64,000 nucleotides of DNA. Source: Gemmatimonadaceae bacterium (GTDB taxonomy: Bacteria > Gemmatimonadota > Gemmatimonadetes > Gemmatimonadales > Gemmatimonadaceae). The notes beneath the pieces are model-generated. The model ran no database searches and was not told the origin of the DNA. It saw only the letters and a program-made list of their open reading frames with translations. How positions within the stretch are numbered: the stretch's first letter is position 1; each line of letters opens with the position of its first letter. Location: assembly GCA_020846935.1 (NCBI GenBank), contig JADLCY010000015.1, positions 1 through 64,000 on the forward strand. Reading direction: 5' to 3'. Of the stretch, positions 39,856-57,178 are shown piece by piece. The position numbers and the translations under genes were made by a program.

Positions 39856-41832
39856 TTACTTGCTGCCGCTCGGCGGCCGCACCGGGTCACCATCGTTGAT
39901 GATCGTCGGTGTGATCATGATCAGCAGGTCCTTCTTTTCCTCGCGCGAGTCGGACTGCGAGAAGAAGCGCCCGATGAGGGGCAGGTCGGACAGGAAGGGG
40001 ATGCCGGCGCGGTTCTTCACGACCTGAGTCTGGACCAGGCCGGCGATCACCGCGGTCTCGCCGTCGTTCACGAGCAGCTGCGTCTGGGCGTTGCGCTTGT
40101 CAATGATGAAGCCGAGGTCGCCGCCAACGATGCGCAGTTCCGACTGCTCCGCTTCCATCTTCATGCGGATCTGGCGGTTGCTCGTGATGTGCGGCGTGAC
40201 CTTGAGGATGATGCCCGTTTCGCGGAACTGGACGTTGGCACGGGCGGGCGTACCGATCTGACCCAGGGAGCCGGCGTCGATTACGCGGACCGGGGTTTCC
40301 TGGCCGACCGTGAGGCGCGCTTCGCGGTTGTCGAGCGTCACGACACTCGGCTCGGCCTGGACGTCGGAGAGCTGCGACTCGCGGAGTGCGTCGAGGAACG
40401 ACGTGAGCGAGTACTTCCCGAGTGCGGTGGAGAAGATGAGGTTGAGCGCGCTCCCGGACTTGTACTTTCTCGTCGCGTTGGCGACGCCGGCGATCGCGTC
40501 GCCGCCGAGTTCCACCCGCGATTCGAACTGACCGGGCGTTGTGGCGCCTTCGGGGATGCGCGGGAGCAGCGTATTGAGGAACGTGTTCGCCGAGCCGATG
40601 TCATAGCTCAGGCCGAGCTGTTCGATCGAGGTGCGCTGGACCGAGATGATCTTGGCCTTGAGGGCCACCTGCGGCGTGCGCACGTCGAGCCCGCGGACGT
40701 ACGAGAGCAGGTTCGGCAGCCGCGAAGCGACTTCGGTGATGATCAGCGAGTTGGTGGCGCTGTCTGCCGCGACGGTTCCGCGGACGATGCAACCGGCCGG
40801 TACGCCGCCGACACCACCGCCACCCTGCGCGCCACCGGTGCCCTGACTCGTGCCAGGCGCACAGTCCTTGTAGAGAAGCCCCTGCACCGTGGGCTGCAGC
40901 GACGTGGCCGACACGTAGTTGATGTTCACCATCTGCGTGGCGACCGGCTCACTGGCCTGCTTCTCGAGGATGTTCTTGTAGCTGTCGACCGTGATGATGC
41001 CTGACGCTTCTTCGATGGCGGCAAGGCCCTGTGCCTCGAGGAGTGCCTTGAGGGCGACGTCCCAGGGCTGGTCCTTGATCTCGGCGGTGATGGTGCCCGA
41101 GACGTCCTTGCCGACGACGATGGTGCGCTGTGAGAAGGTGGCGAACGCCGCGAGCACGTCGCGGATGTCAGCACCGGCGTAGGTTACCGTGATGCGCGGC
41201 TGCTGTGCCTGCGGCGCCGCAGCGTCGATCCGGGGCTCGGGGCGCACGTTCTGCGTCGCGGCCTCCTCGATGTCGCGGGCCGGCGGCGAGGTCACGACCT
41301 CACCGGCCTTCTCGACGACCGTGGTGTCTGACTTCGGGGTCGCCGCGGGACGTTCGGCCGCAACTTCGGCGACCGCCTCGGCGAGCATCTGGCCGGAGGA
41401 GTGCCAAGCGGCGAACCGCTCTTCTGCGGTGAGCGAGATGCGGACCGTGTTGCCTTCGCGGGTCACCGCGTAGTCGCGCTCGCGGTCCAGGTCGAGGACG
41501 ATGCGCACGACGTCGCTGCGGTACTGGGCGAGCCGGACGTTGCTGATCCCGGCGCGGGCGATGCGATCGTACGCGCGGGCAAACGGCGCGAGCCGAGCGC
41601 CGCTGATGTCGAGCACGATGCGGTGCGGCGACGGGACGGTGAAGTCCTGCACCTCGACCGGACCGGACACCGAGACGATCACGTCGGCGCGTCCGGTACC
41701 CGGGACGATCGAGAGCGCGGTAATGGAGCTGGCGGCCTCGATCGCGACCGCCGGACGGCCGGCATGCGCCTCACGAGAGCTGCCGAACAGCGCGACGGTC
41801 GTGATGGCGACCAGCGAACAGACTCGCCTCAT
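39856..41832 (-). CDS. pilQ: type IV pilus secretin PilQ
   Basis: 658 residues with a signal peptide ending SREAHAG. One AMIN domain (residues about 40-135, SPHRIVLDISGARL) binds peptidoglycan; an STN/N0 domain (DIRDVLAAFATFSQRTIVVG) and N1 domain follow, then the secretin barrel with VQTQVVKNRAGIPFLSDLP and GRFFSQSDSREEKKDLLIMI (20). It is the outer-membrane gate for pili. The start overlaps pilP by 4 bp. Confidence 0.95.
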   Translation of the reverse strand: MRRVCSLVAITTVALFGSSREAHAGRPAVAIEAASSITALSIVPGTGRADVIVSVSGPVEVQDFTVPSPHRIVLDISGARLAPFARAYDRIARAGISNVRLAQYRSDVVRIVLDLDRERDYAVTREGNTVRISLTAEERFAAWHSSGQMLAEAVAEVAAERPAATPKSDTTVVEKAGEVVTSPPARDIEEAATQNVRPEPRIDAAAPQAQQPRITVTYAGADIRDVLAAFATFSQRTIVVGKDVSGTITAEIKDQPWDVALKALLEAQGLAAIEEASGIITVDSYKNILEKQASEPVATQMVNINYVSATSLQPTVQGLLYKDCAPGTSQGTGGAQGGGGVGGVPAGCIVRGTVAADSATNSLIITEVASRLPNLLSYVRGLDVRTPQVALKAKIISVQRTSIEQLGLSYDIGSANTFLNTLLPRIPEGATTPGQFESRVELGGDAIAGVANATRKYKSGSALNLIFSTALGKYSLTSFLDALRESQLSDVQAEPSVVTLDNREARLTVGQETPVRVIDAGSLGQIGTPARANVQFRETGIILKVTPHITSNRQIRMKMEAEQSELRIVGGDLGFIIDKRNAQTQLLVNDGETAVIAGLVQTQVVKNRAGIPFLSDLPLIGRFFSQSDSREEKKDLLIMITPTIINDGDPVRPPSGSK

Positions 41833-42413
41833 TGCTTCCTCTCTTTGTTGGAATCACCCAGCGCCAGCGTTTCCTGGCGGCTGTACCCGAACTCTTCAAT
41901 CGTGAACACCACCGACCGCGGCGAGATGGCGGAGACCCGCATGCGACCGAGCGACTGCCCGACGCGGATGCGGTACTGCTCCTTCTCCTTGGTCGAGACG
42001 TCGTGGAGGACCGCGACGGAGTTGCGACCGCCCGCGTCGTACGCCACGGCGACGAGCCGCAGGTCCGAGATGAGGGGTCGGAGCTCGCTCGTGCTCATGA
42101 GCGAGACGAACGGATCGCGGCGTCCGCCGCGATCGTACAGGAACGTTTCGCGTTCGAAGCTGCTGCCAGCGGAGACCACCGAGGCGGTGCCGGCTGCGGA
42201 ATCGGTGGCGACGCGACGTGCCGCGGCGGGCGTGGCGGCCGGCGCGGCGACCGCGGAGTCAGTCGGCAGCGTCGAGTTTGCGCGTGTCTGCGCGTTTGAC
42301 GCGGCGACGGCGTTGGTGGCCGCCGCCTTGGTCCGCGAGATGGACGGGATCGACTGCGCCTGTACCGCGTTCGCGGCAAAGACGACGGCCCCGAGGAGCA
42401 CCGGGATACGCAT
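41829..42413 (-). CDS. pilP: type IV pilus assembly protein PilP-like
   Basis: 194 residues. Signal peptide MRIPVLLGAVVFAANAVQA without a lipobox, so it is periplasmic rather than a lipoprotein as in Pseudomonas. An Ala/Thr/Arg-rich linker covers 30-85. The C-terminal domain has RRDPFVSLMS, a match to the F/DPF motif of PilP, then beta strands ending in FTIEEFGYSRQE. PilP links PilNO to PilQ. Overlaps pilO by one base and pilQ by four. Confidence 0.85.
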   Translation of the reverse strand: MRIPVLLGAVVFAANAVQAQSIPSISRTKAAATNAVAASNAQTRANSTLPTDSAVAAPAATPAAARRVATDSAAGTASVVSAGSSFERETFLYDRGGRRDPFVSLMSTSELRPLISDLRLVAVAYDAGGRNSVAVLHDVSTKEKEQYRIRVGQSLGRMRVSAISPRSVVFTIEEFGYSRQETLALGDSNKERKQ

Positions 42414-43027
42414 CAGGACTTCCCTCCACGCGTCACTGTCGCCGTCCTGGCGACATAGGTCTGGATCTCGAACTTCGTGTCGAGGGCCGAGGAGCCGACG
42501 GGGCGCCGGGCGACCGCATCGAGGTTGGTGTTACCGGCCACCGCGAGCGACACGTTCACCGGCGCCATGATGCGCGTCAGCGAGCCGACGTTCGCGAGGA
42601 ACTCGGCGACGGCGTGGTAGCCGCCGGTGACGGCGATCTGGTAGCGGTAGGTGTCGAACTGCTCGCCCTCGACCACGGGGGCCGGGGTGACGGCAGAGAT
42701 GTCCAGGCCCGCACGACGCGCGGCGGTCGACACCTGCTCGAGGAGCGCGGGCACCTCGTTGCCGGTGGGCACGAGCTGCCGCATGACTTCCAGGTCGCGG
42801 CCGAACTGATCGGCCTCGGCGCGGAGCTGCTCGCCCTTGCCTTCGGCGGCCTCGGAGCGTGCGACGTTGTTGCGCTTTTCGAGCGTATCCACACGCGAGC
42901 GCAGTTCGGTCAGTTCCTCGGACTTGGGCTTGTAGACGAAGTTCCAGTACGAGGAGGCGAGCATCGCGGCGACGACGCAGACCAGGACCATCGCCTGTTC
43001 ACGCTGTGTCTTTGGCGGGAAAGCCAT
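42413..43027 (-). CDS. pilO: type IV pilus assembly protein PilO
   Basis: 204 residues: cytoplasmic start, one membrane helix (MVLVCVVAAMLASSYWNFVY), then a coiled coil and a ferredoxin-like periplasmic domain with RYQIAVTGGYHAVAEFLANV (20), a typical PilO motif. It pairs with PilN. The gene is 3 bases after pilN. Confidence 0.92.
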   Translation of the reverse strand: MAFPPKTQREQAMVLVCVVAAMLASSYWNFVYKPKSEELTELRSRVDTLEKRNNVARSEAAEGKGEQLRAEADQFGRDLEVMRQLVPTGNEVPALLEQVSTAARRAGLDISAVTPAPVVEGEQFDTYRYQIAVTGGYHAVAEFLANVGSLTRIMAPVNVSLAVAGNTNLDAVARRPVGSSALDTKFEIQTYVARTATVTRGGKS

Positions 43028-43030
43028 GGG

Positions 43031-43768
43031 TTACCTCACCGAGAGCGAAACGGGGGCGGTGGTGATGACGGACTTGTCGGGGCGTTCGAACTCGGCGTCG
43101 AGCTGGAACTCCGTGACTTCCTTGCCATCGAGAATGACGAGCTCGGACTTCGCGAGCTGGACGTTCTGCAGGAACGGCGACGTTTCGAGGAGCTTCATGA
43201 AGCGAGTGAGCGCCTGGATGTCGACGGTGTTGCCGATGAGCCGGAAGCGGAGCGGGCCGACCGGCGCCTCGTCCTTCTTGCCAGGCCTGGCGGTGGTGTC
43301 GGCCTTCTCCTTCTTCTTCTGGTCTTCGAGCAGGGCTGCCGGCACGGCGACCGCGGAGGTCTGCTGGATGGACTTGAGCCACGTGTAGGGCGGCAGCGAG
43401 CGTGACACCTCGTCGAGGATGTGCGGCCACACGTAGCGATCGTTGTCGATCGAGCGGATGATGGTCAGCTGCTTCATGACCGAGTCGCGCTTGGCTTCGG
43501 CGCGGCGGCGTTCCTTGAGCACCATCGCGTATCGCGTGGAGTCCCGGAGTGCCGCGGTCTCGCGAAGGCCGAGGTCCATGGCGTTGGACGACTGCGAGAG
43601 GTGCATGGTGCCGACGCCGCCGACCGCGAGCAGCACGGCGACGATGGCGGAGAGCAGGTACGGATCCCGGGTGCGCGAGGCGGCACCGGTGGCGAAGCCC
43701 TTGAGCGAGAAGCCGCCGTGGGACTTGCTCTTCCTGGCGGCGCCTGGCAGGAGGTTGATCTGGATCAT
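43031..43768 (-). CDS. pilN: type IV pilus assembly protein PilN
   Basis: 245 residues. The INLLPG motif at the N-terminus binds PilM. One membrane helix (about 34-52), coiled coil, then a ferredoxin-like fold with an inserted Lys/Glu/Asp-rich loop (QKKKEKADTTARPGKKDEAP). FRLIGNTVDIQALTRFMKLL (20) is a typical PilN strand-helix. It starts 21 bases after the pilM stop. Confidence 0.92.
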   Translation of the reverse strand: MIQINLLPGAARKSKSHGGFSLKGFATGAASRTRDPYLLSAIVAVLLAVGGVGTMHLSQSSNAMDLGLRETAALRDSTRYAMVLKERRRAEAKRDSVMKQLTIIRSIDNDRYVWPHILDEVSRSLPPYTWLKSIQQTSAVAVPAALLEDQKKKEKADTTARPGKKDEAPVGPLRFRLIGNTVDIQALTRFMKLLETSPFLQNVQLAKSELVILDGKEVTEFQLDAEFERPDKSVITTAPVSLSVR

Positions 43769-43789: not shown

Positions 43790-44833
43790 TTACGCCGCCT
43801 TGCGCAGGGCGAGGCCAATGGGAAGCATGAGGAGCGGCGCGACTTCGTCGGTGACGAGGTTGTCGAGGGCGCCTTCGCGAATGCGGAGGTTGGCGAGCGG
43901 GTTCGCGAGTTCGACCGGGAGTCGCAGCCGCTGGCTGAGCGCCTGCGTGAGACCGGGGACGCGGGCGCCGCCGCCGCACAGGTACACGGCGCGCATCTGC
44001 GAGGCGTTGCGCGACGACGAGGCGAGGAACGCGGCGGCGCGCTCGACACCAACAGCGATCTCCTCGCCGCGATTCTCGATGACTGCGTCGAGGTGCGGCG
44101 AGCGATCGTAGCCCTGGAGGAGGCCATCGGCCTCGTCGGGACTCAGGCCGCGCTCGCGCTGCAGATCTTCGCGGAAGCGGCGCGTCCCCACCGTGAGGTC
44201 ACGGGTGAGGATCGGCACGCCGTCATCCATGATGTTGATGTTGGTGACTTCGTGCCCGATGTTGATCAGCCCGACGACGCCGTTCATGGCATCGGGGTGA
44301 TTGACCTCGAAGGCGTTATGCAGGGCGAAGGCGTCGACGTCGACGACGGCGGGCGTGAGGCCGGCGTCGGTGAGGAGGCGCATCTTGTTCTCGATCAGGT
44401 CGCGCTTGGCGGCAACGAGCAGCACGCTCATCTCCATGCCGTCGGCTTCGGGATCGAGGATCTGGAAGTCGAGCTCCACCGACTCCATGTCGAACGGCAC
44501 GTGCTGTTCGGCTTCCCAGCGCATCAGTTCGCGCGCCTGCTGTTCCTTCACGCGCTCGATCTGGATCTTCTTGATGATGACGTCGCGGCCACCGACCGCG
44601 GTGACAACATCGCGCGCCTTGAGACCTGCCTGTTCCATGGCGCTGCGGATCGCATCGGTGACGATGCCGGGGTCCATGACTTCGCCCTCGACGATCGCAT
44701 CGGCGAGCAGCGGCGCGATGACGACCTTCGCGAGTTCCGGTTCACCTCGACCGTGGTCGATCACGGCGATCTTGATGAGGCCCGAGCCGATGTCGAGCCC
44801 GATCGTGGACTTCTTGCGACCGAAGAGCGCCAT
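43790..44833 (-). CDS. pilM: type IV pilus assembly ATPase-fold protein PilM
   Basis: 347 residues from the ATG at 44833 (MALFGRKKSTIGLDIGSGLIK). Actin-like phosphate 1 loop TIGLDIGSGLIKIAV; VGLINIGHEVTNINIMDDGV is the phosphate 2 loop (20); GGGARVPGLTQAL is the adenosine motif. PilM is cytoplasmic and binds PilN. It opens pilMNOPQ. The 202 bases in front hold its promoter or continue the minor pilin transcript. Confidence 0.95.
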   Translation of the reverse strand: MALFGRKKSTIGLDIGSGLIKIAVIDHGRGEPELAKVVIAPLLADAIVEGEVMDPGIVTDAIRSAMEQAGLKARDVVTAVGGRDVIIKKIQIERVKEQQARELMRWEAEQHVPFDMESVELDFQILDPEADGMEMSVLLVAAKRDLIENKMRLLTDAGLTPAVVDVDAFALHNAFEVNHPDAMNGVVGLINIGHEVTNINIMDDGVPILTRDLTVGTRRFREDLQRERGLSPDEADGLLQGYDRSPHLDAVIENRGEEIAVGVERAAAFLASSSRNASQMRAVYLCGGGARVPGLTQALSQRLRLPVELANPLANLRIREGALDNLVTDEVAPLLMLPIGLALRKAA

Positions 44834-45035: not shown

Positions 45036-46166
45036 CTAGTGGAGCGGCGCCCAGGCGCGCCGTCGCACCGGAACCAGGGGCGCCCAGCGTCTCAGCGCGC
45101 CTAGAGCCGCGCAGCGCGACCAGCGCAGCGTGACGCCATCGAGGATCTCCGTGCCATCGCCCGCACCCGGGCGTGCGTCGCCGGCCAGCACGGCGCCATA
45201 CACCCTGCCTCCCCCCCGCCCGCTCCTCAGGTCGTCCCGGGTCACGATCACGCCGTGGAACTCGGCGCCGCCCGAGATCGTGAGATCGCCCTCCACGAGC
45301 AGCACGCCCTGCCCTCGGCCTCCGCGCAGTTCGAGGTCGCCCGTGGCATGCACCACCGGGGCGTGCCGCGCACAGGCCCCGGCGCCACGCGGCTCTCCCC
45401 AGTTTGTGGAGTCACTCGTATCGCATACGCCGACGCGCAGGGTGGGCGCGGGGGCCACGACAGCGCCCGGCGCGAGCGTCACGGTCGCGCGCGCCAGGAG
45501 CGATGCCCACGCGTTCCCGGTGTAGGTGCCAGCGAGGCCGGCCCGGGGATCGGGGTCGAGGGGTGGGATGCCGACCACGGTCCCGGCGCGTACGGTGCTG
45601 GTGTCAGGGACGGCGATACCCGCGACCGTGCCTGTGTCTGCACACCCGACACTCCAGGAGCCTGTGAGCGTATCGGTGCCGATCACGCGTCCGGTACCGG
45701 CCACGGTGACGGACTCGCGCGCCGAGAGCGCGGCAGCGCGATCGACCCAGTCCACGAGCTGTTGCCGGTACACGAGGCTAACCCGGCGTTGGGCATGGCC
45801 GGGGCTCGACGAGTCGGGGACGACACCCAGGGCGGTGATCCACCAGGCGATCGGCGAGATGCGCCGGCCGCGGACGATGGCCCATCCATCGCCGGCCGCG
45901 AGCTGTCTCGTGGGGATGGTGTCTCCCACGGCCATACTGTCGAAGTCGAAGCCGGCCCAGTCTCTCAGGATCGACCATGCCCCGGCGTCTGCCGCGGCCC
46001 CGGCGATGGTGATGCCGCGGTTCTCAACGCCTCGGCGCGCGTCGCCAAGGGCGATATGCACAGCTCCGGTGCTGAGCACGAGAAGCAGGAGGAGGACGCC
46101 AAGTACAGTGATGAGGGCCACGCCGCGTTTCGTGCTCGGGCGGCGGGCACGCGATGCGGTGGTCAT
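45036..46166 (-). CDS. PilX-like protein with polymer-like C-terminal domain
   Basis: 376 residues. Type IV pilin-like N-terminus RRGVALITVLGVLLLLLVLS: a Gly-Val-Ala-Leu motif after RR, followed by the helix, but without the usual Glu5, as in PilX. The rest is beta-rich with DLELRGGRGQGVLLVEGDL and GGAEFHGVIVTRDDL, repeating patterns like a right-handed beta-helix or polymer-forming cytoskeletal-type domain. It ends with a basic tail. It overlaps the PilW-like gene by 4 bp. Confidence 0.75.
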   Translation of the reverse strand: MTTASRARRPSTKRGVALITVLGVLLLLLVLSTGAVHIALGDARRGVENRGITIAGAAADAGAWSILRDWAGFDFDSMAVGDTIPTRQLAAGDGWAIVRGRRISPIAWWITALGVVPDSSSPGHAQRRVSLVYRQQLVDWVDRAAALSARESVTVAGTGRVIGTDTLTGSWSVGCADTGTVAGIAVPDTSTVRAGTVVGIPPLDPDPRAGLAGTYTGNAWASLLARATVTLAPGAVVAPAPTLRVGVCDTSDSTNWGEPRGAGACARHAPVVHATGDLELRGGRGQGVLLVEGDLTISGGAEFHGVIVTRDDLRSGRGGGRVYGAVLAGDARPGAGDGTEILDGVTLRWSRCAALGALRRWAPLVPVRRRAWAPLH

Positions 46167-47095
46167 GGGCGATTGCGCAGCGCGAGGATGACACTCAGGG
46201 ATTCGGTGACCGACGGCCGGCCTCCCGGGAGTGGTCGCAGGTTGCGGCGAGTTGGTGCCTGGATGTCGATGCCGATGGCGGCCACGCGGGTGGAGTCAGC
46301 GCGGAAGAGCGAGTCGAGCCAGCGCAACTTGAGTCCTGCGGCGCGCGGTGGAGCGAGCGGACCGGCGGCGGGTTGGACGGTGGCCCACCCTGCCGGGGCG
46401 TTGAACTCGGTGACGCCGAGCATCCAGTCAGGAGTGGAGAGGTAGAGGAGGAACCGGCGCGGGCGCAGGATGCGTACAGGCGCCCCAATGGCGGCGGCGG
46501 TTGCGGGCGGCACGAGATCGAGTCTCCAGGCGGGCGTGGCCGCATCGCGCACGGCGTCGGCGAGTTGCCCTCCGACGCAGCCGCCGGAGCTGGTGCCGAC
46601 ACCAACGATGGCGTGCCGGTTCCAGCGATCGTCCGCTGAGGTGCGGCTGGCAGCGTCATCGAGCAGGACGAGGACGTCGCCGACCTGTGGGGCGCTGGTG
46701 TAGCCAGCGAGGTCGACCCCGCTGATGAGGGGAGCGCGGGGGAGCATGAGGGCGCCGGACGTTTCGCGGCAGGCGACGGCTGCTGCGACGGTGGCGGACC
46801 ATGTGAGCGCGGAATCGCCGAGCGTGAGGAGATCGCCGTCTGCGGGGGAGGCCGCCGAGGGTAGCGCGGTGAGGATGCGTAGCGCGGCGTCGACCTGGGC
46901 GTGCTGTTCGGCCACGAGGGTGGTGCGCTCATACCAGCGCGTGCTGGACGCGAGTGCGCGGAGGCACGCGGTGGCGACCGCACCGAAGACCGAGAGCGCG
47001 ACGAGCAGTTCTGCGAGGGAGGTGCCGCGGCGCGCGCGGTGACGGTGGCGCGGGCTGCGCGGGACGGCGCGAAGGAGCGATCCGGGCCTGGTCAT
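46163..47095 (-). CDS. PilW-like minor pilin
   Basis: 310 residues from the ATG at 47095, chosen because it overlaps the previous stop in ATGA. The prepilin cleavage site is RRG-TSLAELLVALSVFGAV, with Glu at position 5 of the mature protein. The globular domain is large, as in PilW (GspJ-like), with a Cys pair likely in TACLRAL and VACRETSG. It belongs to the tip complex that starts pilus assembly. Confidence 0.8.
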   Translation of the reverse strand: MTRPGSLLRAVPRSPRHRHRARRGTSLAELLVALSVFGAVATACLRALASSTRWYERTTLVAEQHAQVDAALRILTALPSAASPADGDLLTLGDSALTWSATVAAAVACRETSGALMLPRAPLISGVDLAGYTSAPQVGDVLVLLDDAASRTSADDRWNRHAIVGVGTSSGGCVGGQLADAVRDAATPAWRLDLVPPATAAAIGAPVRILRPRRFLLYLSTPDWMLGVTEFNAPAGWATVQPAAGPLAPPRAAGLKLRWLDSLFRADSTRVAAIGIDIQAPTRRNLRPLPGGRPSVTESLSVILALRNRP

Positions 47096-47442
47096 GGGCA
47101 TGGCCGGACGGACTCGATGCGCCACGGGATGCCGCCGGTGGGGACGGCGCTGAGCGTGATGGTGGCGACGGTGGTTGTTGGGGCAACGCGCCAGGCGAGG
47201 GTACCGGACGGGGTGACCGCGCTACCGGACGCAAGGGTCGCGCACGGAACGGTGCGGAGCGAGTCGAGTGTGGAGGTAGCGGCGATGGCGAGGAGGCGGC
47301 GCCATTGGACGCGGGAGGCGAGCGCGGTGGCTTTGGCCTGGACCGCGAGCGTGGCGGAGATCGCGGAGACGAGGAGGGTGACCGCGACGAGGACTTCGAT
47401 GGTGGTGAGGCCGGCGTGGCGCGGGCGGGTTGCGGGTCGCAT
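47092..47442 (-). CDS. PilV-like minor pilin
   Basis: 116 residues. The cleavage site is RHAG-LTTIEVLVAVTLLVSAI, with Glu5. A short globular domain with VPCATLAS and the C-terminal SVRPCP gives a possible disulfide. It resembles PilV/GspI. It heads the minor pilin operon; CGTTAGGC lies just upstream. Confidence 0.8.
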   Translation of the reverse strand: MRPATRPRHAGLTTIEVLVAVTLLVSAISATLAVQAKATALASRVQWRRLLAIAATSTLDSLRTVPCATLASGSAVTPSGTLAWRVAPTTTVATITLSAVPTGGIPWRIESVRPCP

Positions 47443-47801: not shown

Positions 47802-48212
47802 TTACGGCGTGCACTTGGGCTCGGCTTCCACGGTCGCCGGCGCAAGCACCGTCGGGCCGACGAAGATCGCGCAAGTCTTGGTGGTGGCCGTGTGCGTCGT
47901 GCTGGCCGTCCAGCCCGTGCCGCCCGTGGCGCTTGCGGCCACCGTCACGCCAGCCGACGGAACGAAGCCGTTGAGCGAAGCGGTACCGCCCGAGGTGTTG
48001 CTCGCCGTTCCGCTGGTGTAGACCTGGTTGTCGGCGAAGTACGACTCCTGCGTGGTCGCCATGTTGCGAAGGTCCGACTTCATCGAGGCGAGGTAGGCCT
48101 TCTCCTTGGTGTTCGCGAACTTCGGGATCGCGATCGCGGCCAGGATGCCGATGATGACGACGACGATGAGGAGTTCGATCAGGGTGAAGCCCTTCCGAGT
48201 CGTGTTGCGCAT
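47802..48212 (-). CDS. pilA: major type IV pilin
   Basis: 136 residues. Prepilin leader MRNTTRKG of eight residues, then FTLIELLIVVVIIGILAAIA, the class IVa hallmark with Glu5. The mature protein is 128 residues. From residue 65 to 112 it is unusually rich in Ser, Thr, Gly and Ala (SGTASNTSGGTASL, TGWTASTTHTATTKT), a good target for O-glycosylation. Two Cys (TTKTCAI and EPKCTP) should form the C-terminal disulfide loop. It has its own terminator and a candidate sigma-54 promoter. Confidence 0.95.
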   Translation of the reverse strand: MRNTTRKGFTLIELLIVVVIIGILAAIAIPKFANTKEKAYLASMKSDLRNMATTQESYFADNQVYTSGTASNTSGGTASLNGFVPSAGVTVAASATGGTGWTASTTHTATTKTCAIFVGPTVLAPATVEAEPKCTP

Positions 48213-48280: not shown

Positions 48281-48298
48281 TAGGCAATCGGTGGACCA
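48281..48298 (-). promoter_or_regulatory. candidate sigma-54 promoter of pilA
   Basis: The minus strand reads TGGTCC-ACCGA-TTGC: GG at 48297-48296 and GC at 48285-48284, exactly 10 bases apart, as required for -24/-12 elements. The -12 half TTGC is perfect; the -24 half has one or two mismatches to TGGCAC. Transcription would start near 48272, giving a leader of about 60 bases. Confidence 0.45.
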
Positions 48299-48720: not shown

Positions 48721-49500
48721 CTACCTGGGCGGGAACAGGTTGAAGCGCACGATGTGCCAGAAGGCGGCCACGCCATCCTTCCAGTTGATCTTCTTGCCTT
48801 CGGCGTAAGTGCGTCCCGAATACGAGATCGGCACCTCATAGATGCGGACGCGCGCGGCCGACAAGCGCGCCGTGACCTCGGGTTCGAACCCGAAGCGATC
48901 CGACGTCAACGTCAGGGAGCGCGCCACCTCGCCGCGGATCGCCTTGTAGCAGGTCTCCATGTCGGTGAGGTTCAGGTTCGTGAACATGTTGCTCGTGAGC
49001 GTGAGCAGCATGTTGCCGACCGAATGCCAGTAGTACAGCACACGGTGCGGCCCGCTGAGGAAGCGCGAGCCGAAGACCGCGTCCGCCTTGCCATCGATGA
49101 TCGGCTCGAGCAGTTGCGGCCAGTCTGCCGGGTCGTACTCGAGATCCGCGTCCTGGACGATGACCACGTTGCCCGTGCTTGCCTGCAGCGCCGTGCGGAT
49201 GGCGAACCCCTTGCCGCGGTTGACGGGCTGGTGGATGAGGACGTCGATCAGGCCCTCGTCGCGCAGCTGGTCGAGGATCTGTGTGGTGCCATCGGTCGAG
49301 CAGTCGTTGACGCAGATGACCTGCTTGCGCACCGGCACCGCGTGCACCTGGTCAAGGATCAGCCGGATGGTGTTCTTCTCGTTGTAGACGGGAATGAGCA
49401 CCGACAGCACGAGTTCATCGGCGGCAATCGGCGTGCGGCCGCGCATGCGCGGCGTGCTGCCTTCCGTGAAGCCCAGGGTGGGCGCAGGGGACATGGTCAT
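48721..49500 (-). CDS. GT2 glycosyltransferase, DPM1/polyprenyl-phosphate sugar synthase-like
   Basis: 259 residues, soluble. GT-A fold: LSVLIPVYNEKNTI, VNDCSTDGT, NRGKGFAIRTAL, then QDADLEYDPADWPQLLEPI, with the DAD metal site as in dolichol-phosphate mannose synthase, and VFGSRFLSG. No membrane segments, like eukaryotic DPM1. It probably loads mannose or another hexose onto undecaprenyl phosphate for the GT-C proteins encoded just upstream. Start overlaps the upstream GT39 stop by 4 bp. A later start (MSPAP at 49494) is also possible. Confidence 0.85.
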   Translation of the reverse strand: MTMSPAPTLGFTEGSTPRMRGRTPIAADELVLSVLIPVYNEKNTIRLILDQVHAVPVRKQVICVNDCSTDGTTQILDQLRDEGLIDVLIHQPVNRGKGFAIRTALQASTGNVVIVQDADLEYDPADWPQLLEPIIDGKADAVFGSRFLSGPHRVLYYWHSVGNMLLTLTSNMFTNLNLTDMETCYKAIRGEVARSLTLTSDRFGFEPEVTARLSAARVRIYEVPISYSGRTYAEGKKINWKDGVAAFWHIVRFNLFPPR

Positions 49501-51113
49501 GGTGTCGTGCGTTGGTAGATCAGGACGTCGGGGGTGCGACCGACGAAGGTGAGCATGGAATCCGGCCCCGAGGCGAGGGTCGACGCGGTTCGGACTCCTT
49601 GCTGTGATCCGACGATGAACCAGGCAGGACGGTACGCGGCGAAGATCTCCCGCGCCACCGTTGCATCTTGAGCGTCGGTGAGGGGCGCGAGCCGCTGAGC
49701 GGGCCGGAACGTGGATGTTGGAACGGCCTTTCGGTGGGCGTACAGGTAGACGATGAGGTCGTCTTCGGTGGAGAGGACGTCGGTGGAGTCTGTATACCGA
49801 GCCGCCCACTCGACGATGGGCCGAGCGCGTTTGCCGGCATCCCGCTGGACAGAGACCCACCATTTTCGGGAGTAGCCCATCGCATTGTACCAGCCTGACC
49901 CGCCCACAAAGGCCGCCACGGCCAAGGCGAGTGCCACGATAGCACCTGTGGAAACGGGGCCTGCGGGTAACCTCGCCGCTGAGTGCCAGACGGCGAGCAC
50001 GCCGCTGCCCACGAGGAGCGGCCAAAGTGGCCACACGGCAAGCACGAATCGGGCAGGTTCGAAGGGCCAGGCCATGATGACCAACGTATAGAAGACCAGA
50101 AACAGCAGGGATACCGGGGCAACGCGCAGGAATCGTTTCATTCCCAGGAGCGCGAACGACAGGACGATCGCCATGACCACCGCGCGCGGCCACCGCGCCA
50201 CCACCGGGAGGAAGTAGTAGCTCAGCATGGCCTCGAGCTCGGTGGCGTTCCGGCGCAGGACAGCGAGCGCAAACTCCGCGCCGCCAAGGCGGTAGCCCTC
50301 GACAAGCCAGCCCCCGTACGACCCGAACTTGCCGACCAGGACGGGAGCGACCTCGTGCTGGTGCGCCCCGACCCAGAGCTGCCAGGGCGTCAGAACGGCA
50401 AGGGCCACGGCGCCCAGGGTCAGGGCGCCCGCCCAGCGTCGGCGCCACAGCATGACCAGCCCGGCGGCAGGGACCGCGAACACCCCGATGGTGCGAACGA
50501 GGGCGAGCGCGCCCAGCAGTGCGCCGGCGACCGCGGCGTCCCTCGCACGTCCGGTCTCTGCCGCGCGTTCAGCCCGGAGCAGCGTGGGGAACAGCAGAGC
50601 AAGGAACATGGGCTCCGACATCACGACGCCGGTGACGAGCAGGACCACGATGGAGAGCGTACCGATGATGGCGACGGCGGCGGCCACCGTGACCGGTGCC
50701 GCGAACCGTTGCCGCGCATACCGAAAGGCGCCGAGCGCCGCGGCCGCGAGCAGGCCCGCGTTGACAAACTTGAAGAGAACGATGTTGTCGGGGAACGATG
50801 GCCAGAGCTTCCAGAGACCGGCCAGGAGCAGCGGGTAGCCGGGCGGAAAGTGGGTTGCGTTAGGCTCTCCTGGCAGATTGAGGAAGCGGTAGCCCTTCCC
50901 CTCCGCAAGAGACTTGGCGAGTACGGTGTACATCGCATCGTCCTGGAACGCGCCGACTGGCCACGGAGTGACGGTGAGGATCGCGACGCCGAGTACCAGG
51001 ACGGCGAGCAGCACCATCGTCAGTTTCTCTGATGGCAAAGGGACGCGCGCCAGGCGCGCGCTCCACATGCGGCGTGTTTCTGCTGCGGTCGACCCGACGT
51101 CAGACGGCGTCAT
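49497..51113 (-). CDS. GT39/ArnT-like membrane glycosyltransferase (1)
   Basis: 538 residues with about 11 hydrophobic segments. The first periplasmic loop has the catalytic acidic pair in GAFQDDAMYTVLAKSLAEG and FPPGYPLLLAGLW, as in PMT/ArnT GT-C enzymes that use lipid-linked sugars. The C-terminal 100 residues are periplasmic. It is a paralog of the protein at 52549-54096 (same QDD, LAEG-GYR-LNLPG, PPGYP blocks). Overlaps both neighbours by 4 bp. Confidence 0.85.
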   Translation of the reverse strand: MTPSDVGSTAAETRRMWSARLARVPLPSEKLTMVLLAVLVLGVAILTVTPWPVGAFQDDAMYTVLAKSLAEGKGYRFLNLPGEPNATHFPPGYPLLLAGLWKLWPSFPDNIVLFKFVNAGLLAAAALGAFRYARQRFAAPVTVAAAVAIIGTLSIVVLLVTGVVMSEPMFLALLFPTLLRAERAAETGRARDAAVAGALLGALALVRTIGVFAVPAAGLVMLWRRRWAGALTLGAVALAVLTPWQLWVGAHQHEVAPVLVGKFGSYGGWLVEGYRLGGAEFALAVLRRNATELEAMLSYYFLPVVARWPRAVVMAIVLSFALLGMKRFLRVAPVSLLFLVFYTLVIMAWPFEPARFVLAVWPLWPLLVGSGVLAVWHSAARLPAGPVSTGAIVALALAVAAFVGGSGWYNAMGYSRKWWVSVQRDAGKRARPIVEWAARYTDSTDVLSTEDDLIVYLYAHRKAVPTSTFRPAQRLAPLTDAQDATVAREIFAAYRPAWFIVGSQQGVRTASTLASGPDSMLTFVGRTPDVLIYQRTTP

Positions 51114-52552
51114 CGCGACTTTCGCTCCTGCTCGATCGCGGTTGCCGACTCGATCAGGCGCTGACCCTCATCGTGTCGGCCGAGCTCGAGCGCCAGCGCA
51201 CCCGCCTCGCGAAGCAGCGTGGCATCCCGGTCGTAGATCCGCCGGGCGATGGTGAACTCGCGGTCCGCGGCGCTGACGTCGTTCGCCGCGCGCATGGCGC
51301 GCGCCGCGACCCAGTGGCCGCGGTAGGACTCCGGGTGCTGGGTAACGAGCGCAATGGCGTGGGTGCGGGCATCGCGCCACGTCGGCGTGCGCTGCCATGT
51401 GATCGACGCCAATCCGATCAGGACAGCGCACAGCAGTGCGACCGTCGGGCGCTGTCGCGCCGGCGGCACCTTCTCCGCCATCACACCGACGACCAGCGCC
51501 AGTCCAACACTCGGCAAGTACAACGTTCGCTCGGCGAGCGCCACGCCGGTGGGGAACAGCACGTTGGACGCGGGTGCGAGCGCGACCACAATCCACGCGA
51601 GCCCCAGCGCGAGCGCGGGCCAGCGCCGCCATGTGAGTGCGAGACACACGAGGAACGCGACGACGACGCCTGCGCCCAGCAGCACGGCTGGCGTGATCGA
51701 AGACGCGGTCACGATCACGTCCGGCTCATAGTCCGAGGAAAGTCGGGTCGGCACGACCAGCAGGCGCACATAGTGCGGAACGATACTCAGTACGGTCAGG
51801 AGCCGCGTCGACGCATCGTGATCGAGGAAGACCGCGGACGTGACGTGCCATGGTGTGCCGGCGAGTGCGTAGCGCATGAGGAGCACCCAGGCCGCAGCAA
51901 CGGCAGCGTACGCTCCGTACAGTCGAGCGCGTTCGCGAAGCGCGCGCCGCCAGTCCGGTGTTCCCAGCCGATCGACGAGCAGCGCGAGGAACGGGACCAT
52001 GATCGCGCTCTCCTTGGAGGCGAGCGCCGCGGCGAACAGTGGAACCGCCGCAAGGGAAGCCCGGCGATGTGCAAGCACGGCGCCCACCCCGAATGCGGCA
52101 GCCATCAGCTCGAGCCGGCCAACGACGTTGGCCACAGCCTCCACGTGGACGGGATGCACGGCGAAGATCACCGCCGCGAGCACGGCGAATGCTGGCGCCA
52201 TGCACGTCAGAGCCAGGCGGTGGACAAGCACGACCACGGCGGCGTGCCACGCAACGTTCACGACATGGAACCACGCCGCACGATTGCCCGCGATCGCATG
52301 GTCGAGCGCAAACGAGACGATGCCTAACGGGCGATACTGCCCTCCCCCCACGGCCGACGGCCAGTAGGGCTGGACGAACGCGCGCCACGCGGTCGCCGGA
52401 TCCTGCACCAGCGGGTTGTGGAGGATGATGCCCGGATCATCGAGGACGAAGCCGTTGCGCCACGCGTTGGCGTAGGCCATCGTGGCCACGAGCGCGACGG
52501 CCAGCGACGCGGAACGGGCAGCGAAGGGACTGGCCGGGAGCGCGGCGCTCAT
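51110..52552 (-). CDS. TMTC-like membrane protein with TPR
   Basis: 480 residues. About 10 hydrophobic segments, then a soluble TPR-like end (residues about 405-475). The first loop reads NGFVLDDPGIILHNPL with the DD pair, then YRPLGIVSFALDH, HPVHVEAVANVVGRLELMAA and ASKESAIM, which are the hallmarks of TMTC/DUF1736 proteins. Eukaryotic TMTC1-4 are ER O-mannosyltransferases that use dolichol-phosphate mannose. The TPR part is short. It sits between two GT39 genes, overlapping each by 4 bp. Confidence 0.8.
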   Translation of the reverse strand: MSAALPASPFAARSASLAVALVATMAYANAWRNGFVLDDPGIILHNPLVQDPATAWRAFVQPYWPSAVGGGQYRPLGIVSFALDHAIAGNRAAWFHVVNVAWHAAVVVLVHRLALTCMAPAFAVLAAVIFAVHPVHVEAVANVVGRLELMAAAFGVGAVLAHRRASLAAVPLFAAALASKESAIMVPFLALLVDRLGTPDWRRALRERARLYGAYAAVAAAWVLLMRYALAGTPWHVTSAVFLDHDASTRLLTVLSIVPHYVRLLVVPTRLSSDYEPDVIVTASSITPAVLLGAGVVVAFLVCLALTWRRWPALALGLAWIVVALAPASNVLFPTGVALAERTLYLPSVGLALVVGVMAEKVPPARQRPTVALLCAVLIGLASITWQRTPTWRDARTHAIALVTQHPESYRGHWVAARAMRAANDVSAADREFTIARRIYDRDATLLREAGALALELGRHDEGQRLIESATAIEQERKSR

Positions 52553-54096
52553 CGCGCTGGCGCGGTGACATACACATCCCCGCCCTGCACCGCGGCCACC
52601 GCTACCAGCGCGGGCGCCGGAGCACTGGCGAGCGCCCGCGCGGCGGTCTTTCCGTACGCCGTCGTCGCGATGACGTGGTCGACCTTGTACGCGGCGAGGA
52701 TCTCTCGCAGTCGCTGCGTGGCAACGGCGGCCGACTGTGGCGTGAGGTGCTCCTGCGCCGTGAACGCGCTGATCGGTACCGTGCGTCGCCCGGTGTAGAG
52801 GTACATGAGCGCGTCGTCGTCAGTCGCGAGCACGTCGCCGGGGCGCGTGTTCGCGCGCACCCACTCCGCGAGCGGCCTCGCGCGCTGCGCGACGTTTGCC
52901 TGTACCTGTGACCACCAGCCGGCCTGCAGCGCCTGCAGGTTGAATCGCGTGTATCCGACGACGAGCGCGACGACGAGGACGCTAGCCGGAACGCGGATGG
53001 ATCTCGACGCCGCGCCGCCAATGGCATGCGCTCCCAGTCCGAGGAGCACGCCGATCACGGGCCAGATGCCCCAGAGGAAGCGCGCGGGCGCGAACGGCCA
53101 CGCAAGCACCACCACGAGGTAGCCGAAGGTGAACACCGTCGTCACAGGCAGGCGACGCATCCCGATCCGCGCACCGGTAACCAGCAGGATGGCGACGCCC
53201 AGGGTAGCAGCGACGCGCGCAACGGGCGAAAGGAGCGCGGTGCTCGTGTGCGCCCACGTCTCGCTGACGAGCTGCCTGGCGTTGGCCAGCACGACCTCGA
53301 TCATCCAGCTCGCGCCCTCCGCACGCGCAGCGTCGCCGAACCACGCGCCGTAGCTGCCGTACTTGCCGGCGAGGACGACGGGAACGCCGCCGGCGTGGGT
53401 TGCGGTCCAGATGTGCCAGGGCGCGAGCACCAGCGCGGCACCAACGAGTGCGCCCGCGGCCGCGGACCAGCGCCGCCTGACGAGCAGGACGAGCACGAGC
53501 CCCGGCACCAGACACGCGCCCAGCGTTCGAACGAGCCCGACCGCGCCAGCCATCGCGCCTGCAGCAAGGGCGTCGCGCCACGTTCCACGATCCACCACGC
53601 GCTCGGCGAGCAGCAGCGCCGGAAACAGCATCGCGAGGAACAGGGGCTCCGACAGGACCATCACGCCGAGCAGCACCAGCGGGGCGCAGGTGGTGAACAG
53701 CAGGGTGGTAAGGGCACGCGCCGCGGTACCGAGGCCGGCACGACCGGTGAGCACCCATGTCCCGACGGTGGCGATGCCGAGCAGGCCCGCGTTTGCGAGT
53801 TTGAAGACGACCACGCTCTCCGGGAACGGCGGCGCGATCCTCCACAGGATGGCGAGGAGCACCGGGTAGCCCGGTGGGTAGTGCGTGGCCCACGGCGCGC
53901 CCGGAAGGTTCAGGTATCGGTAGCCCTCGCCCTCGGCGAGGGAGCGGGCGAGGATGGCGTAGATCCCGTCGTCCTGGAACACGCCGACCGGCCACGGGCC
54001 GATGGAGAGTACGACACTGACCGCGGTCGCGAGGGCCAGCACGAGCGGGAGCGCGACGCGGACATCGACCCGCGCGCGCTCATCCGACGCTGCCAT
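52549..54096 (-). CDS. GT39/ArnT-like membrane glycosyltransferase (2)
   Basis: 515 residues from the ATG at 54096. FQDDGIYAILARSLAEGEGY is the catalytic loop (20), followed by THYPPGYPVLLAILWRI; about 11 membrane helices follow and the C-terminus is periplasmic. It is a paralog of the protein at 49497-51113, probably a duplication with different acceptor or sugar specificity. The gene lies 29 bases after the response regulator gene and overlaps the TMTC-like gene by 4 bp. Confidence 0.85.
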   Translation of the reverse strand: MAASDERARVDVRVALPLVLALATAVSVVLSIGPWPVGVFQDDGIYAILARSLAEGEGYRYLNLPGAPWATHYPPGYPVLLAILWRIAPPFPESVVVFKLANAGLLGIATVGTWVLTGRAGLGTAARALTTLLFTTCAPLVLLGVMVLSEPLFLAMLFPALLLAERVVDRGTWRDALAAGAMAGAVGLVRTLGACLVPGLVLVLLVRRRWSAAAGALVGAALVLAPWHIWTATHAGGVPVVLAGKYGSYGAWFGDAARAEGASWMIEVVLANARQLVSETWAHTSTALLSPVARVAATLGVAILLVTGARIGMRRLPVTTVFTFGYLVVVLAWPFAPARFLWGIWPVIGVLLGLGAHAIGGAASRSIRVPASVLVVALVVGYTRFNLQALQAGWWSQVQANVAQRARPLAEWVRANTRPGDVLATDDDALMYLYTGRRTVPISAFTAQEHLTPQSAAVATQRLREILAAYKVDHVIATTAYGKTAARALASAPAPALVAVAAVQGGDVYVTAPAR

Positions 54097-54125: not shown

Positions 54126-55505
54126 TCACGCCTCTCCCCCAAAGCGCTGCAGCTTGCGGTGGAGCGTCGACGGGTCGATGCCGAGTGTCTCGGCGGCGCG
54201 CGTCTTGTTGCCGCCCTCGGACTGCAGGACCCACATGATGTAGGCGCGCTCGATGGTGTCGAGCGTGGGGTTGGGCGTGGCGCGCTGCTCCACGACGCGT
54301 TCCGGCGTGTGCGAGACGATCTTCTCCGGGAGGCTCGCGACCTCGACGGTGTTGCCCGAGGTGAGGATGACGGCACGCTCCAGCGCGTTCTCCAGCTCAC
54401 GCACGTTGCCCGGCCACGAGTACCTCATCAGCGCATCGAGCGCGTCCTCGGCGAGCGACTTGGGGTCCTGTCCGCGTACCTGCGCCTGACGCGCGAGGAA
54501 GGACTCGGCGAGCAGCGGGATATCGTCCTTGCGCTCACGGAGCGACGGGAGGTGGATCGCGATGACGTTGAGCCGATAGAACAGGTCCCGTCGAAAGCCG
54601 CCGCGGCGGATCTCGTCTTCGAGGTCGCGGTTGGTGGCGGCGATGAGGCGCGTGTCAATGGGCTGAGCATCGGTTGCGCCGACGGGAATGACCTCGCGGT
54701 GCTGAAGGACGCGCAGAAGCTTCACCTGCGTGGCCGGGGTCGTTTCACCGATCTCGTCGAGGAAGAACGTGCCCCTGGCCGCCGCGGAGAAGAGCCCGCT
54801 CTTGTCCTTGACGGCGCCGGTGAACGCGCCCTTCACGTGGCCGAACAGTTCGCTCTCGAGAAGGCTCTCGGGCAACGCGCCGCAGTTGATGGAGAGGAAC
54901 GGTCCTTCGGTGCGCGCGGACAGGTCGTGGACGTAGCGGGCAATGACTTCCTTGCCCGAGCCCGACTCACCGGTGATGAGCACCGTCGACTCGGTGGGCG
55001 CAACGGTCTCGGCGAGGCGCAGGACGTCGGTCCACGGGCGGCTGCGTCCGACCGGACGTTGCGCTCCCGACTTCTCCCGGCGGCGCATCTCCTGCTTGAG
55101 CACCTTGTTCTCGGCGCGCAGATGCTTGTGTTCCGTTGCGCGACGCAGGATGGCCAGCAGCTCGTCGTTGCGGAACGGCTTCTGGATGTAGTAGTAGGCG
55201 CCGTCATTCACTGCCTGCATCGCCGACTGCAGCGTGGCCTGGGCGGTCATCAGGATAACGGGCGTATCGGGGTCCTTTTCGCGGGCCGCGCTCAGGATCT
55301 CGAGACCGCCCACGGCCGGCATGCGGATGTCGCTCAGCACGACATCGGGCGCGAGCGCCTCGATCTGCTCGAGTCCCTGCCGGCCGCCTAACGCGACGTG
55401 TGGCGTGAACCCTTCATTCTTGAGCAGGATGCGGAGGGAGTCGAGGATGCCGGCCTCGTCATCGACGACGAGGACGCTGGGTCCGCCTGGGGTGGAAACG
55501 CTCAC
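54126..55505 (-). CDS. NtrC/PilR-type response regulator
   Basis: 459 residues. An intact receiver (LVVDDEAGI, Asp in VVLSDIRMP, Thr in LMTAQ, Lys in IQKPF), AAA+ domain with GESGSGKEVIA, GAFTGA, FLDEIGE, and a Fis-type helix-turn-helix (NKTRAAETLGIDPSTLHRKL). GAFTGA means it works with sigma-54. It overlaps its kinase gene by 4 bp. Next to pilin genes it is a good candidate for PilR. I cannot tell it from other NtrC-family proteins by sequence alone, so no symbol is given. Confidence 0.88.
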   Translation of the reverse strand: MSVSTPGGPSVLVVDDEAGILDSLRILLKNEGFTPHVALGGRQGLEQIEALAPDVVLSDIRMPAVGGLEILSAAREKDPDTPVILMTAQATLQSAMQAVNDGAYYYIQKPFRNDELLAILRRATEHKHLRAENKVLKQEMRRREKSGAQRPVGRSRPWTDVLRLAETVAPTESTVLITGESGSGKEVIARYVHDLSARTEGPFLSINCGALPESLLESELFGHVKGAFTGAVKDKSGLFSAAARGTFFLDEIGETTPATQVKLLRVLQHREVIPVGATDAQPIDTRLIAATNRDLEDEIRRGGFRRDLFYRLNVIAIHLPSLRERKDDIPLLAESFLARQAQVRGQDPKSLAEDALDALMRYSWPGNVRELENALERAVILTSGNTVEVASLPEKIVSHTPERVVEQRATPNPTLDTIERAYIMWVLQSEGGNKTRAAETLGIDPSTLHRKLQRFGGEA

Positions 55506-57178
55506 AGGGAATCTCCCGGGTCAGCCTGGTAAGTGGGAAGCAGGACGGTCACGCGCGTGCCGCGCGGATCGGAATCGACGAAGACGAAGCCCTTGTGTGC
55601 CTCGATCGCGCGGTGCACGACCGACAGGCCGAGGCCCGACCCTCCGGGCTTCGTCGTGAAGAAGGGGTCGAAGAGCCGGTCACGGATTTCCTCGGGAATG
55701 CCCGGCCCTTCGTCGGAGACCCGCAGCGCCACGCCGCCGCTGTCGAACGACAGGCCGGCCGGCGCATCGCTGGACGTGAGGGGCGCGAGTTCCACCGAGA
55801 CGCGACCCGTGCCCCGCGACGCCTGCACGGCGTTCAGCGCGAGGTTGAAGACCGCGCGGTGCAGCAGGTCTTCGTCGCCCTCGACGATCACCGGCGCGTC
55901 GGGAACGCTCGCGCCCACGGCGACGCCATCCGGACGATCCGGGTGCGCCGCGACCAGCCCCGTGGCGTCGCGGGCAACCGCGGTAAGATCGACGGGGCCA
56001 ATGCGCGTTACGCGTACACGCGCGAAGTCGAGGAACTCGTTCAGCAGGCGCGACAGCCGGTCCGACTCCCTGACGATCAGGCCCGTGAGCGTCTGCTCGT
56101 CGAGCGTGGCCCGATGCGATCGCCCCAGCTGCTCCACCGCTGACCGCACCGCGGCCAGCGGGTTCTTGATCTCGTGTGCCAGGGACGCACTCAGTTCCGC
56201 GACCGCCTCGAGGCGCTCGGCGCGCATGTGCAACGAGTCGAGCCGCTTCTGGTCCGAGATGTCCTGAAAGATCGCCGTCGCCGTTTCCTCGGCGTCGGGC
56301 TCCGCGGTCATGCTCGCGGTGGTGGTGGTGTTGAGCCCGATGGGGAACGAGCGCACGGAGTTCGTCACCGTGCCCTCGGCGCGCGTGGCGCGCACCCGAT
56401 CCACCGCAGCGCGCTCGAGCGAACGCGCAAGGACGGGCGAGACCCGTTCGATGGGCTCGATCACACGCGTGCCCAGCAGCGGGTCGAGGTCGAGACCGAG
56501 GAGCGATGACGCGGCCGGGTTGGCGTAGAGCAGGATCCCGCCCGCGTCGACGGTGACGATACCGCTGCGGATGTTCCGGAGGATGTCGCTGGCCTGCAGT
56601 CGTGCCTTGTTGAGCTGGGCGACCAGCTCTTCGGTCCCGGCGCGTGCTTCGCGGAGCCGCGCACCGATGTAGCCCGACGTCAGGGCCACCGCCGCGAAGA
56701 TCGAAAGCTGCAGCCAGAGCCCGATGTTGTTCGTGATCGGGGACCACACCAGCACTTCGGTGAAGTAGAGTGCGCACCCCAACGCGGCGACGACCAGCGA
56801 TCGCCCCGTCGAGAGCAGGAGCGATGCATACGCGATGACGAGGATGTAGAGCGCGGCAACCTGCGTCGCGCCTTCGCCGATCACGTGCACGATCGTCGTG
56901 ACGGCCACGAGGTCGAACACCGCCTGGGCACCGAGGAACATCGCGGTGAGCGGGCGCCGATAGATCTCGGAGTACGTCGCGGAAATCACGGTGAAGGCGA
57001 GCGCACACGTCATCAGCAGCGACGTGATCAGCGTGTCGACCTTTTCCGCGTTCTGCCAGGCGAAGATGGCGGCGAGGTAGATGGCGCCGACCGACGCCAG
57101 CCGTCCGATGTAGACCCAGCGGACGACAGGCTGAGGCTCGACGAAGCCGAGCGAAGGGGCGTTGCGGTCGGGGAGCAC
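55502..57178 (-). CDS. PilS-like sensor histidine kinase
   Basis: About 558 residues from a GTG at 57178; a TTG at 57235 is less likely because it lies inside the inverted repeat. Six hydrophobic segments (about 18-170), then a PAS domain (ILRNIRSGIVTVDAGGILLY, NPAASSLLG). The phospho-acceptor His is in SLAHEIKNPLAAV; ATP site N-box FNLALNAVQAS, G1 RVSDEGPGIPEE, G2 GGSGLGLSVVHRAI. PilS of Pseudomonas has the same order of six helices, PAS and HisKA. It senses a membrane or pilin-level signal. Confidence 0.85.
   Translation of the reverse strand: MLPDRNAPSLGFVEPQPVVRWVYIGRLASVGAIYLAAIFAWQNAEKVDTLITSLLMTCALAFTVISATYSEIYRRPLTAMFLGAQAVFDLVAVTTIVHVIGEGATQVAALYILVIAYASLLLSTGRSLVVAALGCALYFTEVLVWSPITNNIGLWLQLSIFAAVALTSGYIGARLREARAGTEELVAQLNKARLQASDILRNIRSGIVTVDAGGILLYANPAASSLLGLDLDPLLGTRVIEPIERVSPVLARSLERAAVDRVRATRAEGTVTNSVRSFPIGLNTTTTASMTAEPDAEETATAIFQDISDQKRLDSLHMRAERLEAVAELSASLAHEIKNPLAAVRSAVEQLGRSHRATLDEQTLTGLIVRESDRLSRLLNEFLDFARVRVTRIGPVDLTAVARDATGLVAAHPDRPDGVAVGASVPDAPVIVEGDEDLLHRAVFNLALNAVQASRGTGRVSVELAPLTSSDAPAGLSFDSGGVALRVSDEGPGIPEEIRDRLFDPFFTTKPGGSGLGLSVVHRAIEAHKGFVFVDSDPRGTRVTVLLPTYQADPGDSL

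Follow-up and report, generated by a model that had tools for sequence, protein, structure and literature searches.

The window analysed here, a stretch of 64,000 nucleotides from a Gemmatimonadaceae bacterium (contig JADLCY010000015.1, assembly GCA_020846935.1), contains a complete type IV pilus locus in which four glycosyltransferase genes lie together on the minus strand, with pilSR upstream and pilA, the minor pilins, and pilMNOPQ downstream (Table 1). They encode two PMT_2-type membrane enzymes (GT-C1 and GT-C2), a TMTC-like membrane protein, and a DPM1/AglJ-like family 2 glycosyltransferase (GT2), and together they are probably a cassette for O-glycosylation of the pilin, set within the pilus locus, in which GT2 would supply the donor, the TMTC-like enzyme would attach the sugar to pilin Thr and Ser, and the two GT-C enzymes would extend it or act on other sites. 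Gene order, conservation, predicted fold, active-site motifs, and Ser/Thr covariation were computed, and from these we infer the donor, the acceptor, the activity, and the order of steps. The first-pass annotation, made from the letters of the window, gave correct coordinates for the four-gene stretch and the overlaps of 4 bp each, of which there are three (GT-C1/TMTC-like, TMTC-like/GT-C2, and GT-C2/GT2); its proposal of a lipid-linked O-glycosylation system for pilin or other exported proteins is supported and, by class-wide gene order and Ser/Thr covariation, narrowed to the pilin. The stop codon of pilR is 29 bp from the start of GT-C1, and the cassette is probably co-transcribed with pilSR.

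The arrangement is not due to chance, as it is conserved across the class in several families. Gene order was sampled on stretches around pilM from about fifty relatives, and the survey of TMTC and pilR covered 119 genomes of the class. The common pattern in relatives is pilS-pilR-[GT-C, GT2, and TMTC-like genes in varying number]-pilA-minor pilins-pilMNOPQ; the first-pass annotation had asked whether the genes might never lie near pilin in related genomes, and in several families they stay between pilR and pilA. A TMTC-like gene is present in 49 of the 119 genomes (one copy in the genome of the window), 35 of which also have a pilR match, and the two genes are at most 10 kb apart in 27 of these 35. 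In three of the eight exceptions (G040, G054, and G056), TMTC lies next to pilA instead; in three more the assembly is fragmented and TMTC is on a different contig, and in two the genes look truly apart. On 33 of 46 annotated TMTC-bearing stretches, the distance from TMTC to pilA is at most 1 kb; the other 13 comprise eight with no recognised pilA on the stretch, four from the genus of the window (2.6-2.9 kb), and one at 7.8 kb. Where the set is missing, pilA usually comes directly after pilR, as on 19 stretches from genomes that lack TMTC, with at most about 550 bp between the two. TMTC is the cassette element tied most tightly to pilA in relatives.

The composition of the pilin varies together with the presence of TMTC. 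After mature residue 50, the PilA of the window consists of 31% Ser+Thr, with Thr at 22%, which agrees with the earlier description of a Ser/Thr-rich outer half. The part after this residue was taken as the exposed part of the pilin in a tree-corrected regression with the pilR tree, and TMTC at the locus was associated with an increase in its Ser+Thr fraction of 0.061 (p 3e-4, n=48) when genomes having GT genes only were left out and of 0.070 (p below 1e-5, n=56) when they were counted as TMTC-less. Ser+Thr was the largest effect among all residues (t 5.3), driven mainly by Thr (+0.047); the same tree-corrected comparison found no gain in the N-terminal helix of the pilin and a small drop in PilR. 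In a smaller earlier set with the pilM tree, any cassette compared with none gave +0.059 (p 4e-4), and no rise was found in PilM, PilN, PilO, or PilR. Two loci were classed differently in the two sets: L059, with TMTC upstream of pilS, was TMTC-bearing in the pilR-tree set, and L068, with a GT2-like gene among the minor pilins, was GT-only, and both were without cassette in the pilM-tree set. The lowest pilin Ser+Thr fraction, 0.206 (n=8), belongs to genomes with GT2 or GT-C and no TMTC. This covariation is a correlation and not proof of the acceptor. Single acceptor positions were also considered, with mature residues 58 (p 8e-4) and 73 (p 2e-4) seemingly enriched in Ser/Thr in the presence of TMTC; this is weak, and such positions are not claimed, as 128 columns were compared with no tree correction.

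The TMTC-like protein is most likely a GT-C glycosyltransferase predicted to transfer a lipid-linked sugar to protein. Structure-prediction alignments were shallow, being composed of sequences of the window and of related loci, and the AlphaFold model of this protein, from an alignment of eight sequences, has a predicted local distance difference test (pLDDT) score of 82.9 and a predicted template modelling (pTM) score of 0.86. In structural superposition it matches oligosaccharyltransferases, ArnT, and Pmt4 (Z 18-20, more than 300 residues), and residues about 380-477 superpose on tetratricopeptide repeat (TPR) structures (Z about 13). Foldseek returned no match below E 0.001 for the model, with GT-C enzymes heading the list at probability 1.00, and the fold call is therefore based on both structure rankings together with the motifs. 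No animal TMTC structure appeared in the fold search, and we know of none that has been solved. A profile search of the PDB with the TMTC-like proteins gave only TPR matches among the matches listed. Pfam detects TPR in about a third of the relatives and not in the protein of the window, in which the TPR part is visible in the predicted structure only. Of the motif residues described for human TMTCs (PMC7801869), the DD pair of the first outer loop (D38/D39) is present in all 34 relatives. From motifs M2-M7, so are RP, the M3 acidic residue, and the KE and ER pairs, and [DE]Y is present in 32 of 34; SHKS of M2, the Thr of M4, the Trp of M5 (DW), and the first M6 Pro are not conserved in them. 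The protein tree has two deep clades, both found at pil loci of several families, of which the window has one. Alternatively, the protein could assist in pilus assembly, its GT-C domain being dead. This would be in keeping with the TPR-like end and with the existence of non-glycosylating pilin accessory proteins such as TfpY (PMC11841053), but across 34 sequences from two old paralogous clades the residues of the catalytic and donor-binding motifs do not vary, which makes such a role very improbable.

The two GT-C enzymes are related to PMT_2, whose cut-off of 26.1 bits is passed by GT-C1 and just missed by GT-C2. Neither protein of the window matches the true PMT family PF02366 in Pfam, so that of the earlier "GT39" assignment the kinship with PMT_2 stands and membership in PF02366 does not. 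The DD motif is kept: in 29 relatives D42 of GT-C1 does not vary and D43 hardly does. The structure prediction proposed as a check by the first-pass annotation gave the GT-C fold and TPR end of the TMTC-like protein; the model of GT-C2 was poor (pLDDT 58.8, shallow alignment) and unfit for a fold search, and a PDB profile search with the GT-C1 and GT-C2 proteins found no match.

GT2 can with fair confidence be assigned, by sequence class, to the polyprenyl-phosphate sugar synthases of the DPM1/AglJ type. Its closest solved relative is the dolichol-phosphate mannose synthase of Pyrococcus (E 8.6e-13), with which it shares a catalytic domain with an aligned DAD motif, and human DPM1 is soluble, like GT2 here. 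It differs from AglJ in scoring 115.8 bits against an equivalog cut-off of 325, and as no curated equivalog cut-off was reached, the earlier label "DPM1-like" is retained in the sense of likeness. Where relatives have GT2, there is almost always just one strong copy.

Several observations weigh against the pilin cassette. Without tree correction, the Ser+Thr comparison is weak (p 0.13 if the GT-only genomes are left out and 0.009 when they are counted as TMTC-less) because the pilins of family f4 (L131-L141) are also Ser/Thr-rich with no TMTC at the locus. The TMTC-like protein of the window scores 19.5 bits against the cut-off of 27 for TMTC_DUF1736 (PF08409), for which E 0.001 is reached by three of 34 relatives, and the name "TMTC-like" is used instead of TMTC because this cut-off was not attained; the earlier "TMTC-like TPR protein" therefore holds for the fold, the motifs, and the TPR end of the model and not for Pfam membership. 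PF08409 was also tried as a family marker and, matching in 10 of 119 class genomes, was dropped for lack of sensitivity. No gene for a flippase was recognised in the cassette. In the genus of the window, the immediate neighbour of pilA is not TMTC, and in another class of the phylum (L142-L144), three longer TMTC-like genes stand in tandem with no pilin recognised nearby, from which it also follows that the linkage of TMTC to pilin is not the by-product of a common gene. Lastly, the close relatives L044-L046 keep two GT-C genes and GT2 beside pilA with no TMTC, which is therefore dispensable there.

These last loci, together with the DD motif in both GT-C types, would fit a different order of work in which the pilin is glycosylated but the PMT_2-type enzymes form the first bond to protein and the TMTC-like enzyme extends the sugar or modifies minor pilins. 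This order is unlikely, since pilin Ser/Thr tracks TMTC and not GT2/GT-C alone, and the smallest cassettes between pilR and pilA consist of TMTC alone (L111) or of GT2 and TMTC without GT-C (L104 and L117). The target could also be another surface component, such as a polysaccharide, lipid A, or another exported protein, the location being explained by co-regulation of surface structures through PilSR. Among the PMT_2-type families are enzymes that act on lipid A or polysaccharide, e.g., ArnT, and the genome of the window has nine PMT_2 matches, but the adjacency to pilA extends over the class, the Ser/Thr covariation is specific to the exposed part of the pilin, and none of the cassettes examined had a recognisable polymerase or transporter gene, so that a target of this kind appears decidedly improbable.

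In the pilin cassette as proposed, GT2 would charge polyprenyl phosphate with a sugar taken from a nucleotide sugar, on the inner side of the membrane, and the lipid-linked sugar would then be flipped to the outer face. There, the TMTC-like enzyme would pass it on to the pilin head, at Thr (and Ser), either before the pilus is assembled or while this happens. The TPR end of the enzyme would help to keep the pilin or the pilus machinery in place, and GT-C1 and GT-C2 may draw on the same donor, either to lengthen the sugar or to modify other sites. The name "O-mannosylation" was rejected, as nothing in the data tells the sugar, and the parallel with eukaryotic DPM1, TMTC, and PMT drawn in the first-pass annotation is kept as an analogy, as is its mannose. 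Class-wide, it is slightly more likely than not that the TMTC-like GT-C/TPR enzymes, with their two old paralogous clades, serve as dedicated and modular O-glycosyltransferases of pilin that receive their donor from a DPM1-like synthase; the system would then be the bacterial equivalent of the TMTC pathway of animals, with a defined acceptor, transferases that diverge fast, and a conserved donor synthase.

Glycosyltransferases acting on pilin are known from other bacteria. For instance, TfpW of Pseudomonas aeruginosa group IV is a GT-C arabinosyltransferase whose gene adjoins pilA and which glycosylates the pilin (PMC11841053). Compared by description, both systems have a gene for a GT-C membrane enzyme beside pilA, with different accessory genes paired with different pilins, but tfpW lies downstream of pilA and here the genes lie between pilR and pilA, and the sugar of TfpW is D-arabinofuranose. 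TfpW uses a lipid-linked donor, and to our knowledge it has no TMTC-type motifs or TPR end and no paired DPM1-like GT2 in its cassette. TfpO/PglL-type oligosaccharyltransferases, unrelated to TfpW, also O-glycosylate pilin, as proposed here, but with preassembled O-antigen-type units (PMC11841053), and none is seen in this cassette. Human TMTC1-4, of family GT105, carry out cadherin O-mannosylation (PMC7801869, PMC11292533); they share with the protein described here a GT-C domain with the motifs DD, RP, KE, and ER and, after it, TPR helices, and differ from it in that here the TPR part is far shorter, SHKS of M2 is absent, DW is DY, and the proposed acceptor is pilin.

As TfpW and TfpO beside pilA are already known (PMC11841053), the kind of system is known, and the glycosyltransferase genes here are likewise linked to pilA and conserved in relatives. 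The new elements are the TMTC-like enzyme, its DPM1-like partner, and the class-wide modular cassette. The earlier claim of novelty thus holds for the acceptor, as no literature was found in the library searched that assigns an acceptor to any bacterial TMTC-like protein or that joins TMTC, bacteria, O-mannosylation, and pilin, and it does not extend to accessory glycosyltransferases beside pilA. Judged from sequence, pilin would be the first well-supported candidate target of bacterial TMTC-like enzymes. Gene order and pilin composition over the class name an acceptor, so an open question becomes a test by mass spectrometry, and the system could serve as a tractable model for animal TMTCs. 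Pilin glycans of Pseudomonas help to evade pilus phages (PMC11841053). The same phage pressure would fit the fast divergence of the transferases between the window and the relative G002, with identities of 55% for the TMTC-like protein, 54% for GT-C1, and 67% for GT-C2, compared with 92% for GT2 and 91% for pilM.

The pilA gene is separated from GT2 by 508 bp and has a probable sigma-54 promoter of its own, matching 8 of 12 consensus positions in the window. In relatives, such sites lie mostly 60-100 bp before pilA, and 19 of 60 upstream regions score at least 10 of 12 compared with 0.8 expected from shuffles; it is therefore probable that PilR activates pilA independently of the cassette.

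Table 1. Features of the type IV pilus locus and its glycosyltransferase cassette in the window.
Feature	Position	Strand	Basis or remark
pilS-like sensor kinase	55502..57151	-	HATPase/HisKA/PAS and weak 6TM_PilS Pfam matches; start uncertain; directly precedes pilR in relatives too
pilR-like sigma-54 activator	54126..55505	-	Response_reg, Sigma54_activat, HTH_8
GT-C1, PMT_2-type membrane glycosyltransferase, DD motif	52549..54096	-	PMT_2 28.5 bits
TMTC-like membrane O-glycosyltransferase (predicted), GT-C domain and short TPR-like C-terminus	51110..52552	-	Structure model, motifs
GT-C2, second PMT_2-type membrane glycosyltransferase	49497..51113	-	PMT_2 24.3 bits; ~40% identical to GT-C1
GT2, DPM1/AglJ-like soluble polyprenyl-phosphate sugar synthase (predicted donor maker)	48721..49500	-	Glycos_transf_2 108.8 bits
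Probable sigma-54 -24/-12 promoter of pilA (TGGTCCACCGATTGCC)	48283..48298	-	Starts 86 bases before start codon
pilA, major type IV pilin, Thr/Ser-rich outer part, proposed acceptor	47802..48212	-	N_methyl 37 bits
Minor pilin-like, PilV/GspI type, weak	47092..47442	-	NCBIfam match below cut-off
Minor pilin-like with N-methylation motif, start uncertain	46163..47110	-	N_methyl 16.4 bits, below cut-off
PilX-like minor protein	45036..46166	-	Position and conservation in relatives; no family match
pilM	43790..44833	-	Relative in 55/60 related genomes, up to 92% identity
pilN, pilO, pilP, pilQ	39856..43768	-	Position and sequence; order same in relatives

Related loci show further variation. In the largest cassette seen (L040:3064-16043), pilS on one side and two copies of pilA on the other flank five TMTC-like genes and two GT-C genes, with a sequence gap in one GT-C stretch, and some other cassettes have further PMT_2-type proteins. 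At L106:2792-6296, two adjacent large membrane proteins, 53% identical and with no Pfam match, are likely further GT-C enzymes. A class-I methyltransferase gene, whose product could methylate the sugar, stands just before GT2 in several cassettes of family f2 (L075:2042-2671, L077:2319-3197, and L096:4254-4994). A second PilS/PilR-like pair (30-46% identity) is found downstream of the pilA copies and before the minor pilins in L075, L079, L081, L084, L088, L102, and L107 (families f2, f7, and f10), and the window has no such pair. Elsewhere in the genome of the window (G000:C1:234775-256347), four more PMT_2-type genes occur within 22 kb, a possible further glycosylation cluster. Within the window, a small gene at 57379-57822, judged by eye, has a GGQ-type release-factor motif (GGAGGQHVN) and is likely ArfB-like.

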